Positions 28,857-54,087 of a DNA stretch of 54,214 nt are shown here, in pieces. Position numbers and translations under genes: made by a program. The notes below the pieces were generated by a model. The model was not told the DNA's origin. It searched no databases and saw nothing but the letters and a program-made list of their open reading frames with translations. Source of the DNA: Lactobacillus sp. 0.1XD8-4 (GTDB taxonomy: Bacteria; Bacillota; Bacilli; Lactobacillales; Lactobacillaceae); the NCBI RefSeq assembly GCF_009663775.1, contig NZ_RDBR01000006.1, forward strand, positions 1 to 54,214, in the 5' to 3' direction. How positions within the stretch are numbered: the stretch's first letter is position 1; every line of letters starts with the position of its first letter.

Positions 28857-29648
28857 TTATTTGGTAATATCAGCTCCAAAGTACTTTTCAGATAATTTTT
28901 TGACAGTTCCATCTTGTTGTAATTCTTGCATGGCCTTGTTATATGAAGATTGGATAGCGGTATCTTTCTTATTAAAAAGGGCCGAAATTTTTGCAGGCTT
29001 TTGTTCACTTGAAACATCAATCATTTTAAGCCCTTTCGTACTATTTTGCTTACTGTAAGCGTACCAAGCTTCTCGCGAGTTAACTGTTCCAGCAGCCCGA
29101 CCTTGTTTAATCATGTCAAGAGAACTAGCAAAGTCACCATTAGGGGTCAAATTCCCCTTGTATTTTTTAACAACGTTCGCATTATTAGTCCCAGTTCCCG
29201 CCACAATTTTTTTACCTTTGATATCATTCAAGCTTTTAATCTTACTATTAGTAGGAACAATTAGCGCAAACCGCGATTTAATATATGGTGTTGAGAAATT
29301 ATATTGCTTAGCCCGTTCTGGCGTCTGGGTGATATTATTCATCACGACATCATATTTACCCGAACCTAGTCCGGCAATTAAGGAATCCCATTTTGTTGGC
29401 ACAAACTTAGCCTTTAAGCCCATCTTCTCGGCAACTGCTTTTCCTAAGTCAACTTCAAATCCAGTTAGCTTATTATTTTTCCGATATGAATATGGGGAGT
29501 AGGTTCCCTCAAGCCCAATTGTTAATTCACCCTTATTTTTTAATTCACTATTTACGGCCGACGACGCAGCGTGGATACTGCTAATCCCTGCCGAAGTCCC
29601 AACAATTAGTGTAGCTATCATTAATAATGTCTTTTTCAAAAATTTCAT
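28857..29648 (-). CDS. cyuC: Cystine-binding protein of ABC transporter (BspA/CyuC-like)
   Basis: 263 residues. A signal peptide (about residues 1-27, ending I-H-A) lacks a lipobox Cys, as in BspA of L. reuteri BR11, which is held on the surface by charge. The mature part is a family-3 solute-binding protein: G-L-E-G-T-Y-S-P-Y-S-Y, G-F-E-V-D-L-G-K-A-V-A, W-D-S-L-I-A-G-L, V-M-N-N-I-T-Q-T-P-E-R. Last gene of the cgl-cyuBAC operon. Cystine specificity is inferred from the operon and the BspA resemblance. Confidence 0.85.
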   Translation of the reverse strand: MKFLKKTLLMIATLIVGTSAGISSIHAASSAVNSELKNKGELTIGLEGTYSPYSYRKNNKLTGFEVDLGKAVAEKMGLKAKFVPTKWDSLIAGLGSGKYDVVMNNITQTPERAKQYNFSTPYIKSRFALIVPTNSKIKSLNDIKGKKIVAGTGTNNANVVKKYKGNLTPNGDFASSLDMIKQGRAAGTVNSREAWYAYSKQNSTKGLKMIDVSSEQKPAKISALFNKKDTAIQSSYNKAMQELQQDGTVKKLSEKYFGADITK

Positions 29649-29662: not shown

Positions 29663-30412
29663 TTATTTTAAGTTTTCCATTGTCATTGATGCAATAAAGT
29701 TTTTAATTCGCTGATTGGGGTTATTTGGTGCAAAAAAACTAGTTGGCGAGCCATCATATAAAATTTCACCATCTTCAACAAAGATTATCTTATCGGCAAC
29801 ACGCTTAGCAAACACCATATTATGAGTGACAATCACCATTGACTGCCGCTCATCGGCTAGTTGTAAAAGAACCTTTAGAACACTTAACTCTAACTCTGGA
29901 TCAAGCGCTGACGTTGGTTCATCAAGTAAAATGTACTTTGGACGCATCGCCAATGCCCGGGCAATTGCTACCCGTTGCGCTTGCCCACCAGATAATTCAT
30001 GAGGATAAGCCTCCCCATACTCTGTCAGACCTACTTTGGCAAGCAGTTCTCGAGCAACTTTAATTGCTTCTTGCTTTGGCTGTTTTAAAACCTGGGTTGG
30101 CCCTTCAATGATATTTCCCAAAACTGTCTTGTTTGGAAAAAGATTGTAATCCTGAAAGACCATCCCTGTTTCTTGCCGAATTGCTAACTTATCCTTGCTA
30201 CTCACTTTATGACTAAAATCAAGGTGGTGATTACCAAAATCATATTGTCCGCTTTCTGGCATCACTAATAAATTTAGCGAACGGAGAATTGTTGACTTTC
30301 CTGATCCAGACGGGCCTACCATTACCGTTGTTTTTCCTGCGGGGAAATCTAATGTGGTATTTTTTAAGACATGCTTATTGCCAAAACTTTTATTAATATT
30401 TGTTAATTTCAT
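29663..30412 (-). CDS. cyuA: Cystine ABC transporter ATP-binding protein
   Basis: 249 residues. Walker A G-P-S-G-S-G-K-S-T (about residue 34), Q-loop, signature L-S-G-G-Q-A-Q-R and Walker B Y-I-L-L-D-E-P-T-S-A-L-D are intact. It is a polar-amino-acid uptake ATPase (GlnQ/TcyN type). The ATG at 30412 follows AGGTGAGAAAA; the GTG at 30421 lies inside that site. It sits 12 nt after the permease gene. Confidence 0.9.
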   Translation of the reverse strand: MKLTNINKSFGNKHVLKNTTLDFPAGKTTVMVGPSGSGKSTILRSLNLLVMPESGQYDFGNHHLDFSHKVSSKDKLAIRQETGMVFQDYNLFPNKTVLGNIIEGPTQVLKQPKQEAIKVARELLAKVGLTEYGEAYPHELSGGQAQRVAIARALAMRPKYILLDEPTSALDPELELSVLKVLLQLADERQSMVIVTHNMVFAKRVADKIIFVEDGEILYDGSPTSFFAPNNPNQRIKNFIASMTMENLK

Positions 30413-30424
30413 TTTTCTCACCTG

Positions 30425-31120
30425 CTACTTTGTGCTTACACGTTGGTTTACTATCCGTTCCAAATAGGTTTGCAGATAGGAGAGGACAGTTGTAAAGACA
30501 GCGTAGACCATTGCCACTAAGGTATACATTAATAATGGCTGGTAATTCTCGGCGGCAATCTGTTGGCTTACCGCAAACATTTCCATAATCGTAATCGATG
30601 CCGCCAATGATGTATCCTTTACTAAGCTAATAAAACTATTTGATAATGGCGGCAATGCAACCCGCAATGCTTGAGGCAGGATAATCCGCCATAAGATTTG
30701 CAAGCGCGTCATCCCGATTGCTGCTCCTGCTTCCCACTGCCCAGCTGGAACCGAGCTTATTGCTGCCCGAATCGTCTCCGAAGCATAGGCGCCAGTATTT
30801 AGCGAAAAAGTAATGATGCCGGCCGTAAATGGTTCTAGCTTGATCCCATGTGGCAAAATTCCCTTGATCCGTAAATACGGTAAGCCAAAGAAAACAATGA
30901 ATAATTGTACCAATAATGGTGTGGACCGAAAAAGCCAGATATAAAAGCTAGCAATCCATTTAAGAATCATAAAGGCGCCACGCTGCCGAGATAGCCGAAT
31001 TAAAGCAGTTACTAAAGCAATGATAAGGCCAAAGAAAAATGAAATTATGGCTAACGGAATCGTATACTTAAATCCCGCTGCTAATAGTTGTGGTAATGAT
31101 GTCTTGATTATTTCCCACAT
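30425..31120 (-). CDS. cyuB: Cystine ABC transporter permease
   Basis: 231 residues with about five membrane helices and the EAA loop E-A-G-A-A-I-G-M-T-R-L-Q-I-L-W near residue 145. It belongs to the HisM/TcyL permease family. No second permease gene is present, so it should function as a homodimer. AAGGGAAAGCTTAAATT precedes the ATG. It lies 26 nt after cgl. Confidence 0.9.
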   Translation of the reverse strand: MWEIIKTSLPQLLAAGFKYTIPLAIISFFFGLIIALVTALIRLSRQRGAFMILKWIASFYIWLFRSTPLLVQLFIVFFGLPYLRIKGILPHGIKLEPFTAGIITFSLNTGAYASETIRAAISSVPAGQWEAGAAIGMTRLQILWRIILPQALRVALPPLSNSFISLVKDTSLAASITIMEMFAVSQQIAAENYQPLLMYTLVAMVYAVFTTVLSYLQTYLERIVNQRVSTK

Positions 31121-31146: not shown

Positions 31147-32289
31147 TTAATCTAGTTTATTAAGTGCTTGTTGGAGATCAGCAATAATGTCTTCAGGATC
31201 TTCAATTCCCACCGAAAGACGAATTAATTCATCCTTAATGCCGTTTGCTAATCTTATTTCCCGAGGAATAGAACCATGCGTCATCACTGCCGGAACCTCA
31301 ATTAAGCTTTCAATGCCACCAAGACTCTCCGCTAAATCAATCAACTGGAGGCTTTCAACAAATTTTTTAGCATCAAGACCTGCTTGCAATTCAAAACTAA
31401 TCATTGCACCAAAGTTACGCATCTGTTTAGTAGCTACTTCATGGCCTGAAAAGTCCTTTAGTCCTGGATAATAAATTTTACCGATATGTGGATCCTTTTG
31501 TAAAAACTCAATTACCGCATCGGCATTTTCCTGATGAACCCGCATCCGTGCTCCTAAAGTTTTCATTCCTCGTTGTAATAACCAGCTATCATCAGGTCCA
31601 AGCGTGCTACCGATTGAATTTTGAAGAAAGGCTAATTGCTCGGCAACCTGCTCATCATTCGTCACCGCTAATCCGGCAACGACATCGCTGTGACCGCCAA
31701 GGTATTTAGTGGCAGAATGGACAACAATGTCAGCACCAAGCGTTAGCGGCTGCTGATTGTAAGGAGTAGCAAATGTATTATCGACAATTGTCTTTATGCC
31801 ATGATTTTTAGCAATGGTAGCCACCGCTTGAATATCAGCAATCTGAAGTAATGGATTGGTCGGAGTTTCAAAGTAAACCGCAACTGTATTATCTTGAATA
31901 GCATCCGCAACTGCCGCTAAATCGCGCATGTCAACAACTGTAAATTCAAGGCCAAATCGCTTTAAGACCTTATTAATTAACCGAAAAGTTCCACCGTACA
32001 CATCGCTGCCAACTACAAAGTGGTCACCCTGCGAGAAAAGTGAGAAAACAGCATGAATTGCTGCGGACCCCGATGCAAATGCAAAGCCGGCAGTCCCTTG
32101 TTCCAATTCGGCAATTAACTTTTCTAACGAGGCCCGTGTTGGATTACCAGTTCGTGAATATTCCCACTTTGGTTCTCCGCCAAGAACGTGTTGATGAAAT
32201 GTCGATGAGCGATAGATAGGGGTCGATACTGCCCCGGTTACTGGATCTTCACTATTACCGCCATGAATTAATTGAGTGTTGAACTTCAT
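31147..32289 (-). CDS. cgl: Cystathionine gamma-lyase / gamma-synthase family enzyme
   Basis: 380 residues of the Cys/Met-metabolism PLP family. The substrate and phosphate loop Y-S-R-T-G-N-P-T-R lies near residue 46, D-N-T-F-A-T-P-Y mid-chain, the PLP Lys in S-A-T-K-Y-L-G-G-H-S-D, and S-L-G-G-I-E-S-L near the C-terminus. In L. reuteri BR11 a similar enzyme with lyase activity is linked to cystine uptake genes; synthase activity cannot be excluded. ATG 32289 (M-K-F-N-T-Q-L-I-H-G) follows AAAGGAGATAATTATT. It is the first structural gene after the cysteine leader and terminator. Confidence 0.9.
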   Translation of the reverse strand: MKFNTQLIHGGNSEDPVTGAVSTPIYRSSTFHQHVLGGEPKWEYSRTGNPTRASLEKLIAELEQGTAGFAFASGSAAIHAVFSLFSQGDHFVVGSDVYGGTFRLINKVLKRFGLEFTVVDMRDLAAVADAIQDNTVAVYFETPTNPLLQIADIQAVATIAKNHGIKTIVDNTFATPYNQQPLTLGADIVVHSATKYLGGHSDVVAGLAVTNDEQVAEQLAFLQNSIGSTLGPDDSWLLQRGMKTLGARMRVHQENADAVIEFLQKDPHIGKIYYPGLKDFSGHEVATKQMRNFGAMISFELQAGLDAKKFVESLQLIDLAESLGGIESLIEVPAVMTHGSIPREIRLANGIKDELIRLSVGIEDPEDIIADLQQALNKLD

Positions 32290-32324: not shown

Positions 32325-32371
32325 ACAAAAAAGGCGCAAACCCAAGAATTAATTACTTGAATCTGCGCCTT
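32325..32371 (-). terminator. Attenuator terminator between the cysteine leader ORF and cgl
   Basis: AAGGCGCA and TGCGCCTT (outer arms, 32331-32338 and 32364-32371) form a perfect stem with an inner CAAG/CTTG pairing, then T6 on the minus strand. It lies 36 nt after the leader ORF and 36 nt before the cgl start. No second promoter was seen between, so every cgl transcript must read through it. Confidence 0.85.
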
Positions 32372-32405
32372 ATGCATTATTCCCGATATGTTAGCAGTTA
32401 CTTAA

Positions 32406-32492
32406 CTAAAAGCAAACACGCCAAAACGTGGGTCGCATAAGACGCGATCCACAACAACAAACAGCTGCGTTAACAAATTGAATGTTGAACAT
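32406..32492 (-). CDS. 28-residue cysteine leader peptide (candidate attenuator uORF)
   Basis: ATG at 32492 with TAGGAGG 8 nt upstream (32501-32507) opens a 28-codon ORF ending in TAG at 32406. The middle reads A-A-V-C-C-C-G, with three consecutive TGT codons (32451-32459), and a fourth Cys is second to last. The RNA folds into GTGG-a-TCGC / GCGA-c-CCAC (32428-32452), whose 5' arm starts at the Cys codons. The freed 3' arm GCGACCCA can pair with TGGGTTTGC in the terminator's 3' arm. This fits ribosome-mediated attenuation: stalling at Cys codons when cysteine is scarce would allow read-through into cgl-cyuBAC. The mechanism is inferred; the ORF and structures are seen. Confidence 0.8.
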   Translation of the reverse strand: MFNIQFVNAAVCCCGSRLMRPTFWRVCF

Positions 32493-32522
32493 GACGTGTT
32501 CCTCCTAACTTAGTATGTCAAA

Positions 32523-32551
32523 ATAATAACTTATCAAAAATAAGTTGTCAA
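32523..32551 (-). promoter_or_regulatory. cgl-cyu operon promoter with a dyad in the spacer
   Basis: Consensus TTGACA (32546-32551), 17-nt spacer, TATTAT (32523-32528). AACTTAT and ATAAGTT (32528-32546) form a 7-bp dyad filling the spacer, a likely repressor operator. Transcription would begin about 25 nt before the leader ORF. Confidence 0.8.
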
Positions 32552-39113: not shown

Positions 39114-39199
39114 TGCGGCCGAGAGGACTTGAACCTCCACGGTCATAATCGACCATAAGATCCTTAATCTTACGCGTCTGCCAGTTCCGCCACGGCCGC
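39114..39199 (-). tRNA. tRNA-Leu (anticodon AAG)
   Basis: 86 nt with the long variable arm of class II tRNAs (TGGTCGATTATGACC). The acceptor stem GCGGCCG/CGGCCGC is perfect, with a GGTTCAAGTCC T-arm. The anticodon stem TAAGA/TCTTA encloses TTAAGGA, giving AAG at positions 34-36, so A34 is probably read as inosine. CCA is not encoded. Confidence 0.93.
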
Positions 39200-39256
39200 A
39201 TATCAACCAACGAATATTATTATAGCAAGATACCTATTCGTTGGCAACTACTTTTT

Positions 39257-39709
39257 TTAATTTTTTAAAATAAAATGATGACCGCAACGACGGCAAACAT
39301 ATCGGTTAGTATTAAAACGCCGTTGTCGTGCTATTTTGACACCACAGCCAGTACACTGATAACGCCACTTTCTTTTTGCATTAACACGCCTTTTACTTGT
39401 TGCTGACGCATATCTTGAACCGCCAACCTGCGCCAGTAACTGCTTGAAATCCTTGCTCCGGTGATGATAATCCCTCCCTAGTAAGTGGAGATGGTAATGG
39501 CATAACTCATGAAGGACCACGCTCCGTAAGTTTACTAAGTCAAATTCGGTATACATCAACGGGTTAATATCAATATGGTGGTCATTTAGATGGTAACGGC
39601 CACCCGTTGTTGTTAAGCGCCGATTAAAAAATACCCTGTGCGTAAAAGGACGCCCAAAGTATTCTTGTGACCACTGCTCGGTTAATTGTTGCAACCTTTC
39701 GTTATTCAT
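39257..39709 (-). CDS. SprT-like zinc metalloprotein
   Basis: 150 residues. The zinc-binding H-E-L-C-H-Y-H motif lies in V-V-L-H-E-L-C-H-Y-H-L-H near residue 65. The C-terminal zinc ribbon has C-T-G-C and C-R-R-C-G. It is the Firmicutes SprT-like family (YdcK), which often follows tex as here. Its ATG overlaps the tex stop by 8 nt. Proteolytic activity has not been shown for the bacterial members. Confidence 0.9.
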   Translation of the reverse strand: MNNERLQQLTEQWSQEYFGRPFTHRVFFNRRLTTTGGRYHLNDHHIDINPLMYTEFDLVNLRSVVLHELCHYHLHLLGRDYHHRSKDFKQLLAQVGGSRYASATSKRRVNAKRKWRYQCTGCGVKIARQRRFNTNRYVCRRCGHHFILKN

Positions 39710-41879
39710 TTGTCACCGCTGCCGGCTCAATCATCGTTAACTGAATTCGTTGACGTTGCAAATCAACATCGTCAATCCACACATCAACAATATCACCAAC
39801 CGCAACAATCGCACGGGGATCACGAATAAATTGCTTACTCATTTTTGAAACATGAACCAAGCCATCATGTTTAACACCGATATCAACAAATGCGCCAAAA
39901 TCAACAACATTTCGAACCGTTCCTTGTAATTTCATCCCCGGCTTAAGATCTTCAATTGTCATCACATCATGGCGAAGCAATGGTGCGGGCATTGAATCTC
40001 GCAGATCGCGTCCTGGCTTTTGCAGGGAAGCAATAATATCCTTAACTGTTTCCGCCCCAACCTGGTCGTTAGTAAACTGGCTAATGTCAATTTCTTTTAA
40101 CTTCTTTTCAGCTGCTGGTGTTCCCAAATCAGCAAGGTTAATTCCCGCAGATTCGATAATTTGACGGGCAACTTCATAACTCTCGGGATGGACATCGGTA
40201 TTATCAAGCGGATTTTCGCCACCAATAATCCGTAGAAAACCAACCGATTGCTGGTATGCCTTAGGTCCTAAGCGCGGAACCTTTTTCAGCTGGGTCCGAT
40301 TAGTGTAGCGGCCATTTTCATCCCGGTAAGTCACAATGTTCTTAGCAATCGTCTTATTAAGCCCTGAGATTCGGGTCAATAACTGGTAGCTTGCCGTATT
40401 TAAGTTAACACCGACCCGGTTAACCGCGCGTTCGACAATTGTCTCTAGTTCACCGCTAAGCTCCTTCTTCGGCAAATCATGTTGGTATTGTCCGACACCA
40501 ACAGCTTGCGGGGCAATCTTCACTAATTCTGCTAGCGGGTCCTGCAAACGGCGACCAATACTAATCGCACTCCGTTGTTCAACATGCAAGTCTGGAAACT
40601 CATCACGGGCTTCCTTGCTGGCAGAATAAACCGAGGCCCCTGCTTCATTCACGATTACATAATAGATTGGCCGTTTAACCTTTTTTAGCGCCTCCGCAAC
40701 GAATTGTTCCGATTCACGACTAGCTGTTCCGTTGCCAATTGCAATCATCTCAACATTGTACTTCTCAAGCAGTTCAATAAATTCGCTTTCTGCCGTTGCT
40801 CGTTGTTTTTCCGGTGCTGGTTTATGGGGATAAATAACAGCTTTGGTTAAGAATTTACCATTTTCATCAAGCACCGCTAGCTTACACCCTGTCCGATAGG
40901 CCGGGTCAAAACCCAAGACGACTTTTCCTTTAATCGGAGCCTGCATCAAAAGGTGGTAAAGGTTTTCACCAAATACTTTAATTGCTTGCTCGTCAGCACT
41001 TTCCGTTAATTGCCGACGAAGTTCCCGTTCGATTGCTGGACCTAAGAAACGTTTATATGCATCCTTATATGCCTCTTCAATAAAGGCTGTCGCTTCATTT
41101 TGCTTGCTTGTCTTAATCAATCGAAAATGAAGGTAATTCATTACCGGCGCATCATCGACTGTTATCTTTACGTTAATTACGCTTTCCTTTTCACCCCGGT
41201 TAAAGGCTAAGATCTGGTACGAATTTAGTTTTTGAAGCGGGCTGGTAAACTCATAATATTGCTTATAAGTACCTAATTCATCTTTTTCTTCACCATCTCG
41301 TTTAAGTGCCGTTGCCAACTGACCATGTTGGGCAGTATAGTTACGAAGCCAGCTACGGACAGTTGCCATTTCGCTAATTGCCTCGGCAAGAATCTCGTGG
41401 GCCCCCGTCAATGCACTATCGACATCTGGAACATCATCATTGATAAATTCCTGAGCCTTTTCAGTTAAATTATCATCTGGATATGATAACAACCAGTTTG
41501 CCAAGGGGGCAAGGCCATGTTCTCTTGCCTGTTGTGCCTTTGTCTGCCGTTTTTGTTTGTATGGGAGGTAAAGGTCCTCGACCGCTTGTAGCTCTGTTGC
41601 CGCGTTAATCTGTTTTTCCAGAGCTGGTGTCAGTTTGCCCAGCTCTTTTATTTTATTAATAACTGTTGCTTGTCGTTCACGAAGCGTGGTCACCCGATGA
41701 TATTCATCACGAATTGACTGTAATTGAACTTCATCAAGCGTTCCTGTCATTTCTTTCCGATAACGGGCAATAAACGGAATCGTATTCCCCTCATCCATCA
41801 AACCGAGGGCCGCTTTAATTTGCTGCGAGCGAATATCAGGTAATTGTTTGCTAACAAGTTGAAGTGTTTCCTCTTCCAT
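39702..41879 (-). CDS. tex: RNA-binding transcriptional accessory protein Tex
   Basis: 725 residues. The Tex N-terminal helical domain, YqgF-like domain (G-F-D-P-A-Y-R-T-G-C-K near residue 325), helix-hairpin-helix repeats (N-T-A-S-Y-Q-L-L-T-R-I-S-G-L-N) and a C-terminal S1 domain (K-L-Q-G-T-V-R-N-V-V-D-F-G-A-F-V-D-I-G) are all present. ATG 41879 (M-E-E-E-T-L-Q-L) follows TTGGAGGAAAAA; the longer upstream frame covers the nadE terminator and is rejected. Confidence 0.95.
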   Translation of the reverse strand: MEEETLQLVSKQLPDIRSQQIKAALGLMDEGNTIPFIARYRKEMTGTLDEVQLQSIRDEYHRVTTLRERQATVINKIKELGKLTPALEKQINAATELQAVEDLYLPYKQKRQTKAQQAREHGLAPLANWLLSYPDDNLTEKAQEFINDDVPDVDSALTGAHEILAEAISEMATVRSWLRNYTAQHGQLATALKRDGEEKDELGTYKQYYEFTSPLQKLNSYQILAFNRGEKESVINVKITVDDAPVMNYLHFRLIKTSKQNEATAFIEEAYKDAYKRFLGPAIERELRRQLTESADEQAIKVFGENLYHLLMQAPIKGKVVLGFDPAYRTGCKLAVLDENGKFLTKAVIYPHKPAPEKQRATAESEFIELLEKYNVEMIAIGNGTASRESEQFVAEALKKVKRPIYYVIVNEAGASVYSASKEARDEFPDLHVEQRSAISIGRRLQDPLAELVKIAPQAVGVGQYQHDLPKKELSGELETIVERAVNRVGVNLNTASYQLLTRISGLNKTIAKNIVTYRDENGRYTNRTQLKKVPRLGPKAYQQSVGFLRIIGGENPLDNTDVHPESYEVARQIIESAGINLADLGTPAAEKKLKEIDISQFTNDQVGAETVKDIIASLQKPGRDLRDSMPAPLLRHDVMTIEDLKPGMKLQGTVRNVVDFGAFVDIGVKHDGLVHVSKMSKQFIRDPRAIVAVGDIVDVWIDDVDLQRQRIQLTMIEPAAVTNE

Positions 41880-41904
41880 TTTTTCCTCCAAAATAATTGA
41901 TTTT

Positions 41905-41946
41905 AAAAATAAGGTGGAGGCTAAGAAATTATCATCCTCAGCCTCA
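41905..41946 (-). terminator. pncB-nadE terminator
   Basis: GAGGCT and AGCCTC outer arms, then TTATTTTTAAAA on the minus strand. It is a shortened member of the GAGGCT hairpin family. Confidence 0.7.
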
Positions 41947-41962
41947 CAATCATTACTAACTA

Positions 41963-42790
41963 CTACTTCCACCATGTATCGAGGGGCGCAATCGGCAAGT
42001 GGCGCTTATGCTGTGTTCGGGTATACCATCCCTCAATCTTATCCGCTGCCGTTGACGAAACATCACGCCCTTCAAGATAATCGTCAATCTCTTCATAGCG
42101 CACTCCCAATGCTTCCTCATCCGGTCGCATTGGCTTATCTTCTTCGAGGTCAGCAGTAGGAGTCTTATCGTAAAGCTTAGCCGGTGCCCCAAGGAGTTTT
42201 AATAATTGTTTTCCCTGTCTCTTATCTAAACCGGCTAGTGGTGTAATATCGGCACCACCATCACCAAATTTGGTATAAAAACCGGTAACTGCTTCCGCTG
42301 CATGGTCGGTACCAACCACTGCTCCGCCAAATTGCCCCGCAATCGCATACTGGACAATCATCCGTTCACGTGCCTTAATATTTCCCTTATTAAAATCACT
42401 AATCTGTGATCCTGCAACTGTTAGGGAATCAACCATTGCATCAGTAGCAGGCTTAATATTAACCCGCATTACCCGATCAGGTTTAATGAAGTCGTTAATT
42501 GCCGCCATTGCGTCTGATTCGTCTGCCTGTTCGCCATAGGGAAGGCGGACCGCAATAAATTTATAAGCATCATCATTAGTTTCTTTACGCAGCTGTTCAA
42601 TTGTCAACTGGGCCAGCCGCCCAGCTAAGGTTGAATCTTGACCACCAGAAATCCCCAACACCAGAACCTTCATCCCTGTTTTTTGTAAAAAGTCATGCAT
42701 AAACTTAACCCGTCTTTGCACTTCTTCTTGGGGATCAATGCGGGGCTTAACTTGCAATGTCTTAATTATTTCTTCTTGATACTTTCGCAC
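41963..42790 (-). CDS. nadE: NH3-dependent NAD+ synthetase
   Basis: 275 residues. The P-loop [13 protein letters not shown] lies near residue 46, with the family blocks [22 protein letters not shown] and K-R-Q-G-K-Q-L-L. It amidates nicotinic acid adenine dinucleotide using ammonia; there is no glutaminase domain. It lies 12 nt after pncB, so the pair forms a nicotinate salvage unit. Confidence 0.96.
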
Positions 42791-42802
42791 TGGTAACTAC
42801 CT

Positions 42803-44269
42803 CTATTTGTTTAATGACTTAACATATTCATGAACTTTGTGAATTAACGCAAGCTTGTTGTCATAGCACTTTTGTGATAAGTCAACTGGATATACTTCCG
42901 GATTGAGATCCCGCTTATATTCGTCCCACAAAGCGTTTAGACTATCAAACCGATGCTGCCGGCTTTCTTCAAGGGTGGGTTCATCGTAAACAAACTCACC
43001 ATCACGCCAAATTGGCTTGAGCATTGGGCGGGCAGTAAAGTCATCAACGTCTTTTTGCTGAAGCGGGAAGTTCGGATTGAACATATTAAGTGATTTTTCT
43101 TGGCGTGGATCCTCATCAACTAAGGTAATATAATCACCTTCACTCTTAAGGTCAGCGCGGTCGTTAATCCGCCAAACCTGTTTCTTGCCAGGGGTTGACA
43201 TTTTAGCAACATTGTTTGAAATCTTGATCGTATCAACCATATCTCCGTGAGCATCCTCCATCGCTACCAGCTTATAAACTGCTCCTAACGTTGGTTGATC
43301 GTAAGCCGTGATTAACTTTGTACCGATGCCCCACGTATCAATTTTGGCCCCCTGCATTTGCAGATTTTGAATCGTCTTTTCGTCTAGACCGTTGGAGGCA
43401 ATGATTTGCGCATCTGGGAAACCTGCATCATCAAGCATCTTACGAACTTTCTTTGAAAGGTACGCCATATCACCACTATCAATCCGAACACCCACAAAAT
43501 TAATTTTATCGCCAAATTCTTTAGCAACCTTAATTGCGTTCGGAACCCCGCTCTTTAAGGTATCAAATGTATCAACAAGGAAAACGCAATTGTGGTGAGT
43601 TTCAGCATAGGCCTTAAACGCATCATAATCATTCATGTAAACCTGAACGAGCGCGTGGGCATGGGTTCCAGAAATCGGAATGCCAAACAATTTACCCGCA
43701 CGAACATTGCTTGTTGCATCAAAGCCACCGATATATGCTGCTCGAGTTCCCCACAAGGCAGCATCAAACTCTTGCGCCCGTCGTGAGCCAAACTCCATTA
43801 CTGTCTGGTTACCGACAATTGACTTAATTCTGGAGGCTTTTGTTGCTACCATAATTTGGTAATTAAGAATATTTAAGATAGCTGTTTCAATCAATTGTCC
43901 TTCAATAATCGGTGCATCGACCTGGAAGATCGGTTCATGGTTAAAGACCAAGTCTCCTTCTTCAAAACTATTGATGGAGCCCGTAAACTTAAAATCACGT
44001 AAGTATTCCAAAAAGTCTGCATCAAATTGACCCGTAGACTTAAGGTATTCAATATCACTATCAGTAAAATGCAACTGCTTTACATACCGAATGATGTGAT
44101 CTAACCCGGCAAATACAGCATACCCATTTTGAAATGGCATTTTGCGAAAGAAAGCTTCAAATACCGCACGACGGTTTCCTAATCCCTTTTTCCAATATGT
44201 CTGCATCATACTCAATTCATACGCATCAGTATGAAGGGTAAAGCTATCATCCGGATAATCAAATTTCAT
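42803..44269 (-). CDS. pncB: Nicotinate phosphoribosyltransferase
   Basis: 488 residues. D-A-Y-E-L-S-M-M-Q-T-Y at the N-terminus, E-F-G-S-R-R-A-Q-E-F, and the G-T-H-A-H-A motif with the autophosphorylated His are present, with I-R-I-D-S-G-D later. It makes nicotinate mononucleotide from nicotinate and PRPP. ATG 44269 (M-K-F-D-Y-P-D-D) follows GAGAGGAATTATACTA. Together with nadE it implies dependence on imported nicotinate. Confidence 0.95.
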   Translation of the reverse strand: MKFDYPDDSFTLHTDAYELSMMQTYWKKGLGNRRAVFEAFFRKMPFQNGYAVFAGLDHIIRYVKQLHFTDSDIEYLKSTGQFDADFLEYLRDFKFTGSINSFEEGDLVFNHEPIFQVDAPIIEGQLIETAILNILNYQIMVATKASRIKSIVGNQTVMEFGSRRAQEFDAALWGTRAAYIGGFDATSNVRAGKLFGIPISGTHAHALVQVYMNDYDAFKAYAETHHNCVFLVDTFDTLKSGVPNAIKVAKEFGDKINFVGVRIDSGDMAYLSKKVRKMLDDAGFPDAQIIASNGLDEKTIQNLQMQGAKIDTWGIGTKLITAYDQPTLGAVYKLVAMEDAHGDMVDTIKISNNVAKMSTPGKKQVWRINDRADLKSEGDYITLVDEDPRQEKSLNMFNPNFPLQQKDVDDFTARPMLKPIWRDGEFVYDEPTLEESRQHRFDSLNALWDEYKRDLNPEVYPVDLSQKCYDNKLALIHKVHEYVKSLNK

Positions 44270-44342
44270 TAGTATAATTCCTCTCAATTAAGTAATATAG
44301 TTAGTCGTATTGTAACACGGATTTATCTTAATATTTTAAAGT

Positions 44343-45044
44343 TTACTTTTCAAAAACGAATTCAAACCGTGAACCAACATATTGGGTGTGGACATATTCA
44401 AATGGCCGACCATCTTGTAGGTAAGATAACTGGGTCATCCGTAATAGGGCGTCTCCCCGCTTAATCTGTAAGTAATTGGCAATCTTTTCCGTAGCCTTAG
44501 TAGCAGAAATATGTTGTGTTGCATGACCGGGGTATAGGTTAGCCTTTTCTTCCAGCGTCCGATAAAAAGAAGTAGTTACTTCTTCTTTACTAAATTTTTG
44601 AACAAGGGTCGCGGGAACCGTAGCAATTTCATAGCAAATCGGCACCTCATTTCCATAGCGAACCCGCTCCATCCGTAAAACTTGTTCACCAGGAGCTAAT
44701 TTTAATTTTTCTACTTCCGTTTGTGATGGAATAGTTAGATGGTAAGAAATAGTTTTACTGGCAGCTTTTTTACCCGTTGCCTGCATTAGCTCCGTGAAGC
44801 TCGTTACTCCTGACATTTTTTCCTGAACCTTACGATTAGCGACAAAGGTTCCCGAGCCAACCCGGCGTTCGAGAATTCCCTCATCGACTAGGGCTTGAAT
44901 TGCTTGACGCAGAGTCATTCGACTAACACTAAATTCATTAGCTAGTTCACGTTCAGCAGGAATCTTCTCACCAACTTTCCACTTGCCATCTTCAATATTT
45001 TTTCGCAATTGATTATGAATTTGAATATAGACAGGTGAACTCAT
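44343..45044 (-). CDS. GntR/HutC family transcriptional regulator
   Basis: 233 residues. The GntR winged-helix domain (Y-I-Q-I-H-N-Q-L-R and I-P-A-E-R-E-L-A-N-E-F-S-V-S-R-M-T-L-R-Q-A) occupies residues 5-70. A UTRA ligand-binding domain follows (A-P-G-E-Q-V-L-R-M-E-R-V-R, then R-G-D-A-L-L-R-M). It resembles YvoA/NagR-type sugar-responsive repressors. Its target is not obvious: pncB lies 73 nt downstream and a racemase upstream. Confidence 0.88.
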   Translation of the reverse strand: MSSPVYIQIHNQLRKNIEDGKWKVGEKIPAERELANEFSVSRMTLRQAIQALVDEGILERRVGSGTFVANRKVQEKMSGVTSFTELMQATGKKAASKTISYHLTIPSQTEVEKLKLAPGEQVLRMERVRYGNEVPICYEIATVPATLVQKFSKEEVTTSFYRTLEEKANLYPGHATQHISATKATEKIANYLQIKRGDALLRMTQLSYLQDGRPFEYVHTQYVGSRFEFVFEK

Positions 45045-45137
45045 TTATTCTCTCCTCCTTACGCCACTGTTGATTAAACGTTGCGCACCATTATATTTTA
45101 CACCATTCTACTCATCTAGACCAATTTTTGAAAACTA

Positions 45138-45185
45138 ATAAAAAACGTGATCCACCACAAGGATTTGCAGTGCATCACGTTTTTA
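45138..45185 (-). terminator. aspT-racemase operon terminator
   Basis: AAAAACGTGAT and ATCACGTTTTT arms directly follow the racemase stop, with flanking A and T tracts. Confidence 0.85.
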
Positions 45186-45896
45186 TTAATTTTGCCGCAA
45201 TTTTAATGCCCGTTCAAGCGAGCGGTCAACAATAATTGATTGAGAATCGGCAACAGGATACTTAGTCTCTGGATCCATTTCTTCAGCAAATGATAATTCA
45301 GTACAACCAAGAATTACAACATCACATCCTTGTTCTTCAACCATCTTGCGGACAAGTTCATGATATTTTTTACCATCAGAATGTCCGGCTTCTTTAATAT
45401 CATGGTAGATCAAGTCCTCGGTCATTTCCTCAATCTCTGGCGTCGGTTTAACCTCTTCATAACCAGCACCAGTAATGTAGGGGTCATATAAATTGGCAGC
45501 CAGGGTTCCCTTTGTTGCCAAAAGGCCAACTCGTTTAGCTTCCGGCTTAATATTTTTAATCTCGTTAACTGTCTCTTGCAACATATTTAAGATTGGAATC
45601 TCTGTTGCTGCTTGAAGCTTATCAAAAGAATAGTGTGCCGTATTACAAATTAGCACAAAAAATGCAGGATTTAATAAGCTTTGTTGTTTAATATCTTCGA
45701 TTAGCGCTTCATTAGGATCAGGCTGACGATGGTCTAAAATCCACGCTGTCCGATCTGGAACAGTCGCGTGATTAACAACTAAATAGTTCAAATAATCCTG
45801 ATCACGGTGAATCGGTGTCCTCTTATCTAATAGACGTACATAACTCTCCGTTGCCAACGTACCCATTCCACCTAAAATTGTAAAAAACTGTTGCAT
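45186..45896 (-). CDS. Aspartate/glutamate racemase family protein
   Basis: 236 residues. The two catalytic Cys contexts are present: F-V-L-I-C-N-T-A-H near residue 84 and V-I-L-G-C-T-E-L-S-F near residue 197, with G-G-M-G-T-L-A at the N-terminus. This is the cofactor-independent RacX/YgeA/aspartate racemase group rather than MurI. It lies 35 nt after the frameshifted AspT gene, so it may act on the exchanged amino acid. Confidence 0.88.
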   Translation of the reverse strand: MQQFFTILGGMGTLATESYVRLLDKRTPIHRDQDYLNYLVVNHATVPDRTAWILDHRQPDPNEALIEDIKQQSLLNPAFFVLICNTAHYSFDKLQAATEIPILNMLQETVNEIKNIKPEAKRVGLLATKGTLAANLYDPYITGAGYEEVKPTPEIEEMTEDLIYHDIKEAGHSDGKKYHELVRKMVEEQGCDVVILGCTELSFAEEMDPETKYPVADSQSIIVDRSLERALKLRQN

Positions 45897-45931
45897 TTTT
45901 AATTTTGCACGCCCTTTCTTAGCGATTATTC

Positions 45932-47580
45932 TTATGATAACAGTGCCACAAAGATTGGTCCTAAAAGTGTAATTCCAATATTCCCCACTACAAAGGCCGG
46001 CGTGAAAGCCGCAGCATAATAAGCTCCCCCTTCTGGTCCCGCCTTTTGAGAAATCTCGCTCATTGCCGCCGCAATCGTCCCTGAACCAGTCAGTGCCCCG
46101 ATTAATGCTAGGAGTTCCATTTTTAGGACATAACGGCCAAATAATAAGGTTAATAAATGGGGCATGATTGAAATAAGCACCCCGATGACCAGCACCCCAA
46201 TCCCTAATGATTTGATAGCACTAGTAAAAGCTTGTGCTGACTGTAGACCAACCGTCCCAACAAAGATTGTTAAACCAAAACTTTGTAGGAACCCCGTTAC
46301 AGTCTCTGGAATTGACTTGCGGTCACGATGCCGTTCAATCCATGAACTTAAAATCAACCCCATAATCAATGCGGCCGTTCCGTTACCAAGCTGTAATGGA
46401 ATACTGTTTAATTTTATCCCGATAATCCCTAAAAGGGAAGCACAACCAATTCCCAATGAAAACAAGGAATAATTCATTGCAGAATCTGCTGCTTTCCACC
46501 GGCCGATTTTTTTAAGACTGCCTTTGTCCGTGATGTATTCCCCGTTAATGAAATTACGTCTCCTGGGCGTAGTTGGTTTATCAGTTGTTGATTTCCGCTG
46601 ATCGGGTCCTGAATATTAATAAAGACCCCGTGTTGCCGCAAAATTGCTAATTCACTTGGCTTAAATTGTTTGCCTAATACAAATTCCCGTTCACGAGGGG
46701 CATTGGTCGGCGTCAAGACTTCTGTTAGCCCTGGAATACGCATCAAACGATCAAAATGAACTGCATAACCAATCACAGTTAATAGATCGCCAGTTTGCAA
46801 ACGATACTCTAGGTGGTCGGTCATCTTCCCATCATGAAACGCTGCTAGTGCAATAATGCGGTAATTCGATCGCCGATTAAATTCTTCTAAATTTTTGCCA
46901 ACAAGCGATGAATCACTAGCAAGACGATATGTCCGGCGCCAAGTCGGGTTAGGATTTTTGGCATGAAAATGATAATGTTCAGCCATTTGCGGTCCCCGTT
47001 CTGCAATCGAGATGCCTAAAATCTTAGGAGCAATATCTCTCAAAAAGATAATTACCCCTAGCGTACCGAATACATATGTCAGGGCATATGCAACTGGCAA
47101 CTGTGCTTCGTAAGTTGCTTTAACGCTCTGACTCACCGGCAAAGAGCCAATCGTTTGTAAGGAACTAGCAACTGTGGCAGACTGTGTGAGCGCCCCAGAG
47201 ATAACCCCCGCAGCAATTCCCGGGCCAATTTTGAAAGCCGCAAACAGACTCCAACCAACAAAAAAGGCAATCAACATCCAGAAAATGCTGGCAATTAAAA
47301 TCCGCACGCCAAAGAGCTTTAGACTAACCAGCAACTGGGGGCCAATCCGGTAGCCAACTGAGAACATAAATGCTCCGAAAAAGATTGTCCCAAGCATTTC
47401 ATTCCGTGGGAACGCCCCGACTTGTCCCACAATAAGGGTAACGATTAACGTCCCAACGGTTGCTCCAATATTAAATTTTCCCGCAATCTTATAATTACCA
47501 ATCAAAAAGCCGAGTGCCAGGCAGATAAAGAGCGTGAAAACTTGATTGTTCACCATAAAGTGAACGATAGAATGTATCAT
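45932..47580 (-). pseudogene. aspT: AspT-type aspartate:alanine exchanger, split by a -1 frameshift at an A7 run
   Basis: Two frames overlap by ATGA at 46474-46477: a 368-residue part (N-terminal membrane domain plus TrkA-C domains) and a 181-residue part (C-terminal membrane domain). A run of seven A lies at 46507-46513 as TTA-AAA-AAA-TCG. Slipping back one base there yields V-L-K-K-I-G-R-W-K-A-A-D-S-A-M-N-Y, joining both parts into 549 residues, the normal AspT length. AspT proteins exchange aspartate for alanine and so generate proton-motive force. The site is a textbook A-AAA-AAA slippery heptamer, so slippage expression is possible; mutation or assembly error is the alternative. Confidence 0.8.
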
Positions 47581-47664
47581 CTTTTTTAGTCGCTTTCTTT
47601 AAAATCATGAAAATAGCATTAATCATGCCACATTATTACATTCTTGCTTCCCTAATTCAACCAC

Positions 47665-49065
47665 CTATTTTGAAATAATTGCGTGCGTCTTTTGGAGACG
47701 GTAGTTAGTAATCATTGCAAGTAAAGTAACGATTGCCAGGATACCCAGCAAAATAAAGTCAAAGCGGCCACCGGCATAAGTCCGTCCAGCTAATGAACCC
47801 GTGTTACCAGCTTGGAATAACGCAATTGCAGAAGCCAACAAACTAGTCCCTAATGACCCGGCAAACTGCTGAACCATGTTAAAAATTGAATTGACGTCTG
47901 GGGCATTTTGCGGTTGAACCAGCATCGAAGCATTGGAAATCGTGTTAGAAAAAGCAAAATTAAAACCAATCCGTAACACAATAAAGAAAATCATAATAAG
48001 TATAGGCGTAAGATGCTGCTGAAAAACACTAAAACTAACCGTCCCAATTACAAGCAAGCATCCCCCAGTAACTACTGGTACCACAAATCCCAAGCGATCA
48101 GCTAAATTCCCCGCAATTGGCGAGATAAATGCCCCAATCAGCGAGCCAGGCAATAAAACTAACCCGGCAACAATAGCTGAAGAATGTAACACATATTGAA
48201 GGTAGATTGGGATAACTAACGAAATTCCAATATTTATAAATTGTAAATTAAAATAAGTTACCGTTGATAACCGGAGCGGCACAACTTTAAAAACAAGCAA
48301 GTCAAATAACGAGGATTTACCATGATTATTAACATAAATAAAAATGCCAAAGAAAATAATTGCAATTAATAGTAATAGCCAAAATTGGCGGCTAAATCCA
48401 TGTTTTCCAACTGTTGATACCGCGCTAATCGTGCTAATCAAGGCAAGGGCAAGGGTAACTAAGCTGGCATAGCTAAATGCCTTACTATTTCCCAAAGGCT
48501 GATTACGAATAAATAATTGCCCACAAACAAGACTAATTAAGACCACTGGTAGAAGAATCCAGAAAATCATCCGCCAAGACATCATTTCCGAAACAATTCC
48601 ACCATATGTTGGTCCTAACGCCGGAGCAAATGAAATCACCATTGCTGCAAGCCCAGTCATCATCCCAATTCGTTCACGCGGAATCTCAGTAAAAATTAAA
48701 TGAAACATAATCGGCGTTGCTAACCCAGTTGCTATTGCTTGAATTAACCGTCCTGTTAATAGGAGAGGGAAATTTCCCGTCAAAGCACACATTAAGTCAC
48801 CAATGATAAAAAAAGTTACTGCAAATAAGTGTAACCATCGGGCAGCATATTGGCGCAAGAGGTAGGCGGTTGTCCCCATCGTAATCGTAACCATTAATAA
48901 GTAACCAGTCGTAATCCACTGAATGACGTCTAACGATACGCCAAATTGTGCTGATAACTCAGGATAAGTTACGTTCATTGATGTTTCGTTAAGCACGCCA
49001 ATAAATGTTAATAAAGCTACTGAGCCGATTGCAAAATAAATTTTTGAAAAGCTTTTCTCTTCCAT
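47665..49065 (-). CDS. MFS multidrug transporter, DHA2 (14-TM) family
   Basis: 466 residues with about fourteen membrane helices. The EmrB/QacA pattern is visible: L-N-E-T-S-M-N-V-T-Y-P-E-L in TM1, W-I-T-T-G-Y-L-L near TM2, motif A/B-like G-R-L-I-Q-A-I-A-T-G and motif C G-P-T-Y-G-G near residue 155. It is likely a proton-coupled drug or acid exporter. AGGAGGACCTATTATTGCA precedes the ATG. It has its own transcription unit; substrate is unknown. Confidence 0.88.
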   Translation of the reverse strand: MEEKSFSKIYFAIGSVALLTFIGVLNETSMNVTYPELSAQFGVSLDVIQWITTGYLLMVTITMGTTAYLLRQYAARWLHLFAVTFFIIGDLMCALTGNFPLLLTGRLIQAIATGLATPIMFHLIFTEIPRERIGMMTGLAAMVISFAPALGPTYGGIVSEMMSWRMIFWILLPVVLISLVCGQLFIRNQPLGNSKAFSYASLVTLALALISTISAVSTVGKHGFSRQFWLLLLIAIIFFGIFIYVNNHGKSSLFDLLVFKVVPLRLSTVTYFNLQFINIGISLVIPIYLQYVLHSSAIVAGLVLLPGSLIGAFISPIAGNLADRLGFVVPVVTGGCLLVIGTVSFSVFQQHLTPILIMIFFIVLRIGFNFAFSNTISNASMLVQPQNAPDVNSIFNMVQQFAGSLGTSLLASAIALFQAGNTGSLAGRTYAGGRFDFILLGILAIVTLLAMITNYRLQKTHAIISK

Positions 49066-49091
49066 TGCAATAATAGGTCCTCCTTCTTAGA

Positions 49092-49131
49092 CAAAATAAA
49101 AGAGCTATAGTGATCAACTCCACCACAGCTC
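49092..49131 (-). terminator. Terminator after the 214-aa gene
   Basis: GAGCT and AGCTC outer pairs continue inward with TGGTG/CACTA, followed on the minus strand by TTTTATTTT. Confidence 0.7.
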
Positions 49132-49197
49132 CATAAAATGATTTTATTCAAATATCGGTTTAATTTTACCAAGCAGAATAAACAAAAGTCAATGTCA

Positions 49198-49842
49198 TTA
49201 TTGAAGACTCAAATTTTTTAGCCATTGCTGCGTCCCTTCATCTAAGGACTGGTCGATTTCAAACGGGAATGGCTGCAGTAAGGCACGCACCTTTTCCCAG
49301 TCAATCACTTGGTGGGGAAAGATAGATGCAACCATCATCGTAAGCATTTGCGATTTCTGTTGTTGACCTATTTGCGGCTGGTTAATCAGGGTTATCGCCA
49401 CGGCCTTCTTTGCTAATAATTGAATAACTAGTTCTGCTAGTGCAAGTTGCGAAATAGTAGCGGTAATTCGTAATTGCTGCCGAAGTGGTACCGCTGGTAA
49501 TTCTTTCTGCAAGAAATGTTGCAAGGCATCCCAATTCGCTAATACTTGTGAATAGAATTGCCAAGGAACGCGGGCATTTAACCGCGTTAACAATGGTGGG
49601 ATAATTTGTTGTAAATTACCACCAGCTACTGGCAATTGCTCACAAATCTCAATTAGCATCCGTTGAATTGTTTCTCGATGACGTGGGTCAAGCCGCTTTT
49701 TTAATGTTAGGGCATAACGAACAACCAGAAAATCCGTTAATTGATCCCTGTCAATTGTTCTTACTTCCCCATGTTTTTTCACCTTAAAATTATTTAATTG
49801 TTTTATCCGCGATGATTTAGCAAAGTGTCCCTGTTTTGGCAT
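49198..49842 (-). CDS. Uncharacterised 214-residue soluble protein
   Basis: The first 30 residues are basic (S-S-R-I-K-Q-L-N-N-F-K-V-K-K). The rest is predicted largely helical and Leu/Gln-rich (T-I-Q-R-M-L-I-E-I-C-E-Q-L, then I-T-A-T-I-S-Q-L-A-L-A-E-L). There is no signal peptide or membrane segment. The helical, basic-start pattern is loosely NusB-like, but no diagnostic motif supports that. It is monocistronic between the MFS gene and tRNA genes. Confidence 0.65.
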   Translation of the reverse strand: MPKQGHFAKSSRIKQLNNFKVKKHGEVRTIDRDQLTDFLVVRYALTLKKRLDPRHRETIQRMLIEICEQLPVAGGNLQQIIPPLLTRLNARVPWQFYSQVLANWDALQHFLQKELPAVPLRQQLRITATISQLALAELVIQLLAKKAVAITLINQPQIGQQQKSQMLTMMVASIFPHQVIDWEKVRALLQPFPFEIDQSLDEGTQQWLKNLSLQ

Positions 49843-49868
49843 TAAACCTCAGTCCTTAAAAATAAAAT

Positions 49869-49907
49869 GTAACAAAAAAACTGTGACACATACATGTCAC
49901 AGTTTTA
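49869..49907 (-). terminator. tRNA-Tyr/Gln terminator
   Basis: AACTGTGACA and TGTCACAGTT arms with a 6-nt loop, followed by T7 on the minus strand. Confidence 0.85.
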
Positions 49908-49913
49908 AGACAG

Positions 49914-49985
49914 TTGGGCTAGCTGGATTCGAACCAGCGCATGACGGTACCAAAAACCGTTGCCTTACCGCTTGGCTATAGCCCA
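49914..49985 (-). tRNA. tRNA-Gln (anticodon TTG)
   Basis: 72 nt; acceptor TGGGCTA/TAGCCCA, D-arm AGCCAAGCGGTAAGGCA, anticodon loop TTTTGGT with TTG, T-arm CTGGTTCGAATCCAG. CCA is not encoded. Confidence 0.96.
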
Positions 49986-49995
49986 ATAATAAAAG

Positions 49996-50078
49996 TGGAG
50001 GAGGGTGGATTCGAACCGCCGAACCCGAAGGAACGGTTTTACAGACCGTCGCGTTTAACCAGACTTCGCTACTCCTCC
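49996..50078 (-). tRNA. tRNA-Tyr (anticodon GTA)
   Basis: 83 nt with a long variable arm; acceptor GGAGGAG/CTCCTCC, anticodon GTA in CTGTAAA, T-arm GCGGTTCGAATCCACC. It lies 10 nt upstream of tRNA-Gln and shares its transcript. Confidence 0.96.
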
Positions 50079-50179
50079 AAGAAGTTGCTTGATTAAATAT
50101 TTCGTATCAATCAACGTTTATTATAATACCTAATTTCCATCTTCATTGCAAGTCTTTTTTTCTATTTTTTTGAAAAAAG

Positions 50180-51010
50180 TTATACTGATTTAATACACAA
50201 ACGGTTAATCCATTGATCTAATAGGGTTTTACCGTGCCACATCTGCCGTCCTTTTCGCTGCACGCCTACTGCACTATTAAGATAATCCACCCCATTAATA
50301 GTAATTAACGCTGGTGCATAATGTAAATGACCATAAAACACCTGCCGGACCATTGGAAATTTGGCTAACAAATCACCTAAGTTTTGGCTCCCCATCATTG
50401 CCATTGTCATTTCCCACATTCGTTGCCGTCGCCCTTCAACTGCGACTCCCTGAGGAAGGGTCGCCGCTGCCGGGGCAAAATGAGTCATAAATATAACCCT
50501 TTTACCACTTATCTGCGCATCAAGCAACTGTTGGCGTACTTGTTTTAAAACTAGTGCCATCCGCTCTTGGTCACTCATTGGCTGAGGAATATTCCGGTCA
50601 ATCCAGTATGCTTTTTTCCACCTTGCAACTTCATCCGGTGATGCTTCGTATTGCGAAAAAGAATAATCATACCAACCATTATTACCAATAATGCGCCAAT
50701 TTGTTTCCGGAAGGTCAATAAACTGATTATGCAAGTAACAGGAATCACGCATTCCTTCAAGCTGGTCATAAGTAATATTTTTCAACATGTCATGGTTGCC
50801 AGCTAAATAATACACTTGCGTAACAGAGAGCTGCTGTTGAAGCTGCTTGAAATATTCCTGAGTTTTAGCAAAGTCGTTAAACATATCACCTAAGAAAAAA
50901 TAGTAGTTAATTTTTTCAGTAGTTAAATAATGTGCTTGCTGGGTAATAACATCTACTACATTTGCATGATTTAAATCTAAGTGTAAATCGCTACTTATCG
51001 CAATCTTCAT
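50180..51010 (-). CDS. Calcineurin-like metallophosphoesterase
   Basis: 276 residues. The dimetal motifs are in order: S-S-D-L-H-L-D (residues 6-12), F-L-G-D-M-F-N-D, A-G-N-H-D-M-L, F-M-T-H-F-A-P and Y-G-H-L-H-Y-A-P. It is a soluble phosphoesterase; nucleotide, protein or phosphodiester substrates are all possible. It follows dtpT, from which a terminator separates it. Confidence 0.88.
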   Translation of the reverse strand: MKIAISSDLHLDLNHANVVDVITQQAHYLTTEKINYYFFLGDMFNDFAKTQEYFKQLQQQLSVTQVYYLAGNHDMLKNITYDQLEGMRDSCYLHNQFIDLPETNWRIIGNNGWYDYSFSQYEASPDEVARWKKAYWIDRNIPQPMSDQERMALVLKQVRQQLLDAQISGKRVIFMTHFAPAAATLPQGVAVEGRRQRMWEMTMAMMGSQNLGDLLAKFPMVRQVFYGHLHYAPALITINGVDYLNSAVGVQRKGRQMWHGKTLLDQWINRLCIKSV

Positions 51011-51027
51011 TTAATGCCTCATTTCAT

Positions 51028-51065
51028 CAAAAAAAGAGACTAAGTCAATCCCAGCCTCTCTTTTT
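51028..51065 (-). terminator. dtpT terminator
   Basis: AGAGGCT and AGTCTCT arms with one mismatch, followed by T7 on the minus strand. It is another GAGGCT-type hairpin. Confidence 0.75.
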
Positions 51066-51069
51066 AAAT

Positions 51070-52569: not shown

Positions 52570-52670
52570 ACAATTCCTCCAAATAATTTCACTTTTCAAT
52601 TAACAATCCGTTAATTGGATACTCATTCCAAACATTAAAAAACTTTAACAATAAAATTCAGAATAGTACC

Positions 52671-54086: not shown

Positions 54087-54087
54087 A

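Follow-up and report, generated by a model that had tools for sequence, protein, structure and literature searches.

A conserved cysteine-codon leader before cysteine genes of Lactobacillales, predicted to act as a ribosome-mediated transcription attenuator

In the window (the whole stretch of DNA analysed here, 54,214 nt from Lactobacillus sp. 0.1XD8-4), cgl and the adjoining cystine-type transporter genes are preceded by a leader that we regard, from comparison of related sequences, as a trp-type ribosome-mediated transcription attenuator reading the charging of tRNA-Cys (probability about 0.93). This comparative evidence, namely conservation and covariation, supports the original prediction that cgl and cystine uptake are under ribosome-mediated attenuation through a Cys-codon leader peptide. 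An ORF led by a Shine–Dalgarno site and containing a run of Cys codons lies before cysteine genes, an intrinsic terminator separates ORF and gene, and mutually exclusive antiterminator and protector pairings covary, with weak pairing in 8/76 of the cores described below. The trp, his and leu attenuators of enterobacteria consist of a short translated ORF with a run of regulatory codons, alternative 1:2, 2:3 and 3:4 pairings and an intrinsic terminator. The leader resembles them in its short ORF with a codon run for the regulatory amino acid, its alternative pairings and its intrinsic terminator. Unlike them, it would sense cysteine, occurs in Lactobacillales and precedes uptake and transsulfuration genes besides those for synthesis; moreover, its region 2 lies within the ORF, 14 nt from the base at which the run of Cys codons begins. 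The elements of the leader and the genes that follow it are:

32523..32551, minus strand: sigma-70-type promoter, TTGACA-17-TATTAT, matching 11/12 consensus positions (-35 TTGACA at 32551-32546, 17 bp spacing, -10 TATTAT at 32528-32523)
32501..32507, minus strand: Shine–Dalgarno site TAGGAGG of the leader ORF
32406..32492, minus strand: leader ORF MFNIQFVNAAVCCCGSRLMRPTFWRVCF, 28 codons, with homologous ORFs in relatives
32451..32459, minus strand: TGT TGT TGT, codons 12-14, proposed stall site
32428..32452, minus strand: protector hairpin 1:2, region 1 beginning within the third Cys codon
32435..32445, minus strand: region 2, GCGTCTTATGC, predicted antiterminator strand just 3' of the Cys codons
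32365..32375, minus strand: region 3, GCATAAGGCGC, overlapping the 5' arm of the terminator
32327..32371, minus strand: intrinsic terminator 3:4 with T6, supported by covariation and folding energy
31147..32289, minus strand: cgl, PLP-dependent enzyme of the cystathionine gamma-lyase/synthase type (best NCBIfam models cystathionine gamma-synthase and gamma-lyase, below cut-offs)
30425..31120, minus strand: ABC permease of cystine type, called cyuB in the original prediction (best NCBIfam model cystine ABC permease, below cut-off)
29663..30421, minus strand: ABC ATPase of cystine type (best NCBIfam model TcyN, below cut-off)
28857..29648, minus strand: substrate-binding protein of cystine type (best NCBIfam model cystine ABC substrate-binding protein, below cut-off)

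The promoter, the TAGGAGG site and the 28-codon ORF with its three TGT codons and a fourth Cys (TGC, codon 27) were all found at the positions predicted from the letters. When start codons of 12-45-codon ORFs with a Shine–Dalgarno-like site were collected from both strands of the window, CCC occurred in 1/154 and CC in 2/154, the leader ORF being the sole CCC case. Scanned in full for promoters, the region yielded 3 sites versus 4.0 expected by chance, that is, no excess; a -35/-10 pair could be placed, within loose limits, upstream of 132/138 leaders. The hairpin at 32452-32428 starts at the Cys codons, as had been claimed, and folds with -11.5 kcal/mol (z -3.67, 1/200 shuffles as good). A terminator with T6 likewise lies before cgl, with a folding energy of -22.8 kcal/mol (z -6.43, 0/200 shuffles as good), but its stem is a 16-bp helix, of which the 8 bp originally described are only the GC-rich outer part. 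The start of the leader peptide, MFNIQ (32478-32492), is like that of Cgl, MKFNTQ (32275-32289), a likeness that is probably due to chance because the N-terminus of the leader is variable in relatives. Elsewhere, the window carries a ribosomal protein L10 leader (RF00557; minus strand, 7484-7603) and six tRNA genes within 39114-54213.

Three mutually exclusive pairings can be drawn for the leader, a protector (1:2), an antiterminator (2:3) and the terminator (3:4), and all three covary. Region 2 (32445-32435), which starts 14 nt 3' of the point where the first Cys codon begins, is complementary to region 3 (32375-32365) over 11 bp, including one G-U pair. Covariation was followed in two MAFFT alignments made without structure, A1 with 27 and A2 with 52 sequences, whose rows had been preselected for the leader and for which the structure was taken from the window. 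In A1, pairings 1:2 and 3:4 together were paired in 95.2% of cells, with 16/25 pairs changed on both sides (slid versions, 49.9% at most), and pairing 2:3 in 93.2% of cells, with 9/12 pairs changed on both sides (slid versions, 55.6% at most); the covariation score of 2:3 was reached by 0/500 shuffles. The corresponding values in A2 were 89.7% for 1:2 plus 3:4 and 87.4% for 2:3, whose covariation score was again reached by 0/500 shuffles and two weaker measures of which were reached by 6/500 and 15/500. Individual leaders illustrate how the letters change and pairing is kept, as with GCATTCTATGCGTA and TACGCGTAGGGTGC in L020, GCGTCAATTACGC and GTGTAATTGGCGC in L106 and, with one mismatch, GCGTCTTTCGCGAT and ATCGAGAAAGGCGC in L025. 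The conservation, with covariation, of Cys codons, hairpin and terminator across relatives, for which an alignment check had been proposed, is thus seen both in A1 and A2 and in the 35/35 hairpin places described below.

An alignment-free duplex test was run on 76 distinct region-2 cores drawn from 138 leaders. The mean energy of a core with its own region 3 was -19.66 kcal/mol versus -13.07 with foreign partners, a value as low being reached in 0/20,000 permutations. For 49/76 cores the own duplex ranked within the best tenth against foreign partners, and in 22/47 it beat every clearly different partner. The own duplex was weak (above -13 kcal/mol) in 8/76 cores, those of L109, L230, L265, L268, L281 (the terminator of which was misplaced by the script), L291, L258 and L260.

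The original prediction had named a different antiterminator, in which the 3' arm of the hairpin (GCGACCCA) pairs with the 3' arm of the terminator (TGGGTTTGC). The window does allow this pairing, but its conservation among relatives is poor: in A2 it was paired in 66.8% of cells and complete or one pair short in 10/52 rows, compared with 86.8% and 31/52 for 2:3 in the same count, and it was rejected. Judged from these alignments, the antiterminator is predicted to be region 2 paired with the 5' side of the terminator (region 3), not with its 3' arm.

For the operon in the window we infer stalling, an order of folding and a response to cysteine along the following lines. When cysteine is ample, the ribosome would move past the three Cys codons and hairpin 1:2 would form behind it, sequestering region 2; with region 2 held, terminator 3:4 would fold and transcription would end upstream of cgl. 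When Cys-tRNA is scarce, a ribosome stalled at the Cys codons would cover region 1, and the freed region 2 would pair with region 3 before the 3' arm of the terminator exists, so that RNA polymerase would continue into cgl and the cystine transporter genes. If the leader is not translated, 1:2 would form and termination would be the default. A ribosome reaches about 12-13 nt beyond the start of the codon in its A site. With the first Cys codon in that site, its leading edge should fall just before region 2, so that the start of region 2 would lie roughly at the edge of the stalled ribosome.

Minimum-energy folding was carried out for 78 distinct leaders from which the ribosome-covered stretch was removed and in which the terminator 3' arm was not yet made. 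With the ribosome at the first Cys codon, 2:3 formed in 78/78 leaders, at the second in 77/78 and at the third in 70/78. The full-length leader folded into the terminator in 73/78 cases when no ribosome was present. With neither ribosome nor 3' arm, 2:3 formed in 46/78, and the default state is therefore unproven by minimum-energy folding alone. For the full-length leader of the window, the terminator is the favoured equilibrium fold even when a ribosome is stalled, on which account equilibrium folding was rejected as proof of the switch. Because the terminator wins at equilibrium and 46/78 leaders fold 2:3 without a ribosome, we infer that the switch would have to be kinetic, acting during transcription, as in trp.

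Selection on the Cys codons was assessed at places located by the hairpin rather than by the ORF. A search of 59 listed loci with the hairpin sequence (at most 6/23 mismatches) gave 39 distinct places, 4 of which (L018, L019, L021 and L022) were that hairpin read from the other strand and were dropped from the count. Two or three Cys codons precede the hairpin in all 35/35 sense-strand places (CCC in 32, CC followed by S, Y or R in 3), with exchange between TGT and TGC at the conserved codons. The pN/pS ratio was 0.25 at the Cys codons, a value raised by the four opposite-strand places, which were kept in these figures, and 0.82 before them, 0.96 in the hairpin and 1.21 after it; L010, with a stop after CCC, was omitted. 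A first version of the codon test, which gave pN/pS 0.05 at the Cys codons, was discarded as circular, its rows having been picked by Cys content. The 138 leaders were also gathered by Cys content, so that their codon counts (third codon non-Cys in 27/138, second in 8/138) provide no independent test. Since pN/pS is low at the Cys codons only, cysteine is, as far as these ratios tell, the amino acid that is kept, and the remaining peptide appears to follow the RNA or to drift. Codon-level selection of this sort speaks, indirectly only, for a leader that is translated and on which ribosomes would stall. In L010:182-226 (also L096), from Limosilactobacillus coleohominis An574, the run of three Cys codons is followed at once by TGA in place of GGA; in this natural variant, the stop should hold the ribosome near region 1.

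The drift of the remaining peptide argues against an arrest peptide, in which the nascent chain and not tRNA charging would stall the ribosome in response to cysteine, an oxidant or some other small molecule. The residues CCCGSRLMRPTFW are near-constant in many Limosilactobacillus leaders, as such a peptide would have it, but the constant SRLMR lies on the RNA pairing and co-varies with region 3 (SHLMR, ARQLR, PRLSR), there is little amino-acid constraint outside the Cys codons, as the ratios above indicate, and the N-terminus differs widely between genera. We therefore consider an arrest peptide very unlikely.

Control at the promoter by a DNA-binding regulator, with the terminator merely setting a basal level, is a still slighter prospect. 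A perfect dyad, AACTTA-N7-TAAGTT, does fill the promoter spacer of the window (32546-32528), and L090 and L091, from the same genus, have matched changes in its two halves (AGCTTA-N7-TAAGCT). However, the dyad is missing from most leaders outside the genus, where the attenuator is kept: all 6/6 palindromic positions were found in 8/110 distinct promoters and 5/6 in 4/110; these counts are too low, the script having misplaced some promoters. The source genome (G000) has only one other such site, at G000:C50:15068-15086. The dyad may be an operator that adds a second layer of control rather than replacing the attenuator.

A riboswitch or T-box with direct binding of cysteine, SAM or tRNA and an incidental ORF is scarcely credible: a T-box does precede a cysteine-responsive ABC transporter operon in L. 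paracasei (PMC6004538), and the source genome has 28 T-box matches, but 0/28 lie on C90 or C75, the two leader-bearing contigs, and amino-acid-level selection on the Cys codons would be left unexplained. An Rfam scan of the leader found no family at cut-off, the best being STnc40 with 22.4 bits against a cut-off of 45; T-box (RF00230), riboswitches and other Rfam cis-regulatory RNAs were ruled out at the leader, none attaining its gathering score.

The Cys-codon attenuator proposed here is not confined to the window. We collected 138 distinct leaders, nearly all before cysK, cgl, a transporter gene or metA, from Lactobacillaceae and one other family of Lactobacillales; the set skipped L272 (by the Shine–Dalgarno filter, the leader being seen otherwise), L284 (no leader) and, by the filter, L256 and L213. 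Among the first 94, which were retained only with one of those four genes downstream, the next gene was cysK in 46, cgl in 35, a permease gene in 11 and metA in 2. Three settings of the leader occur: cgl as the next gene, cysK as the next gene (with cgl often following it), or the transporter genes directly downstream. A DNA search with the leader gave matches in 27/50 genomes of the genus (E <= 1e-3), of which the weakest are trivial. Contig C75 of the source genome carries another copy, which precedes cysK (gene L110:3872-4783). In leaders of this second kind (L108/L111, L117-L119), a hairpin insert interrupts the terminator in three genomes, and one genome has, just 3' of the T-run of the attenuator, a motif that resembles the 5' end of a group-II intron.

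Thirty named Lactobacillaceae loci were gathered by Cgl homology, independently of the leader, from Limosilactobacillus, Paucilactobacillus, Companilactobacillus, Loigolactobacillus, Ligilactobacillus and Oenococcus. Leader and terminator are present in 28/30. The R2 model, one of three covariance models (R1, R2 and R3) derived from leaders, matches 27/30 at E <= 1e-7, most of these loci having been used in building it; in L014, which R2 misses, the Cys ORF and the terminator are nevertheless present. L013 and L015, from two Limosilactobacillus genomes, have lost the leader ORF and the terminator together and retain only a promoter before cgl. Retention of the terminator after loss of the ORF, the observation that would have spoken against the original prediction, was not seen either here, where 28/30 loci have both, or at the hairpin places, where 35/35 have Cys codons.

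R1 matched 103/397 genomes of the family at E <= 1e-3. Inspection covered 30 + 60 of its matches, the rest being weak or already in the set. The 30 loci delivered by the R1 search all carry a CC leader, and 60 further matches comprised 43 with a leader and 17 without. Of the latter, 15 have no Cys ORF and two (L229 and L232) have a Cys ORF that we attribute to chance and lack a cysteine gene, all 17 with E 2.4e-5 or worse. L213 and L218, which the filter had rejected, were counted as leaders, the ORF MLLSNKTTLSMVSCCCGSRLERF... being plain in their letters; in L201 the contig ends before any gene is reached. On account of the false matches, we relied on R2 plus inspection. R2 matched 105/397 family genomes at E <= 1e-4 in 15/40 genera, one of which (g25) rests solely on the false match L229, leaving 14 genera with an inspected leader. 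In 38 further regions (37 R2 matches in the family and 1 from the order search), a Cys leader was present in all but L284, those of L292 and L293 starting with GTG. In L293 (G397:C11), a gene for an OppA-like lipoprotein, named from its letters, lies about 300 nt after the GTG-started CCCC leader; in this setting, peptide uptake may have been added to the regulon.

Searching the order, we obtained R2 matches in 22/395 genomes, 9 of them in a second family (f3), where 9/9 have a CC, CCC or CCCC ORF and the next gene is cysK-like in 8/8 inspected. In the regions examined, f3 leaders of the L258 and L260 type have no good 2:3 pairing (-7.1 and -8.5 kcal/mol). A plasmid search using the leader of this family returned no match. 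Outside Lactobacillales, in a search of 398 and 41 class genomes with few candidates scored per genome, R3 matched only the source genome; as a control it recovered 10/10 known carriers. Absence of the leader from outside Lactobacillales is weakly indicated.

Published expression data are available for a leader of the same kind. Plasmid pFAM18149.25 (NZ_CP017266.1) of Lacticaseibacillus paracasei FAM18149 has the leader MMSQSMFNAINCCCRTTRFWRCSAC and the terminator AAGGGCGCGAAA-N16-TTTCGCGCCCTT before cysK-ctl-cysE, the terminator being the exact motif named in PMC6004538. According to that study, RNA-seq showed the operon (cysK2-ctl1-cysE2) to be up about 8-fold (log2 ~3) without cysteine, in a comparison of cysteine-free with methionine-free medium; reads pile up in the 5'-UTR, no T-box is present, and an antisense RNA also accompanies the operon. 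A Rho-independent terminator was named there and premature termination proposed, but its authors could not identify the regulator (PMC6004538). These data agree with the attenuator reading. In the same source, Liu 2012 is cited for a palindrome, AAAGGGCGCGAA-N(11-18)-TTCGCGCCTTTT, before cystathionine genes of lactobacilli; it corresponds to the terminator of Lacticaseibacillus-type leaders and, as far as that citation goes, was described as a motif, with neither leader ORF nor antiterminator named.

Related systems are known from other bacteria, and the following comparisons hold for the accessible portions of the reports cited. The uORFC-8-2 motif of Rhodobacterales, for which ribosome-mediated attenuation was proposed (PMC8632094), shares with the present leader tandem Cys codons in a uORF, a stem at the Cys codons and an intrinsic terminator. 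By its description it is set apart, occurring only before cysS, unlike the leader of Lactobacillales, which precedes cysK, cgl, cystine-type ABC genes and metA. Polycysteine uORFs, or cys leader peptides, of Mycobacterium and other Actinobacteria (PMC1262725) likewise place Cys-codon runs before cysteine genes; in Mycobacterium they are leaderless ORFs with no conserved terminator hairpin in that portion of the report, in contrast to the Shine–Dalgarno-led ORF, intrinsic terminator and covarying antiterminator found here, and the cys leader of M. smegmatis is said to act by translation attenuation (Canestrari 2020, as cited in PMC13236596). A predicted attenuator with His leader peptides before hisS*/hisZ of Bacillus was presented as something new for Firmicutes, in which T-boxes are the usual device (PMC2965389); it is alike in being an amino-acid leader peptide attenuator in Firmicutes and differs in amino acid, genes and order. 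In our literature search, which covered mostly open papers and few subscription ones, no description of a Cys leader in Lactobacillales was recognised. We regard the Cys leader as a new family of a known kind.

Whether it is also the main cysteine switch of much of Lactobacillales is more doubtful. Such a role, which we put forward tentatively and hold to be rather less likely than its opposite, would make of the leader an attenuation regulon in the place that T-boxes or protein regulators take in other Firmicutes, with at most 2 copies per genome examined, governing cysK, cgl, cystine and perhaps peptide uptake, and metA. If this were true, a readout of Cys-tRNA charging would also report oxidative loss of cysteine, and oxidant attack in the gut or in fermented food would be coupled directly to cystine import. 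HOCl increases cysK in L. reuteri, in which H2O2 and HOCl also have different effects on cgl and cyuABC (PMC6722424).

The letters of regions 2 and 3 vary by species and their pairing is kept; the leader family is therefore a good natural test set for attenuation. For cysK2-ctl1-cysE2 of L. paracasei, the cysteine control of which was measured and the sensor not found (PMC6004538), the attenuator would provide a concrete mechanism, and it would account in the same way for the cystine uptake genes of Limosilactobacillus, which have a link to oxidative defence. Cysteine control bears on sulfur flavour in cheese and on the redox tolerance of gut lactobacilli.
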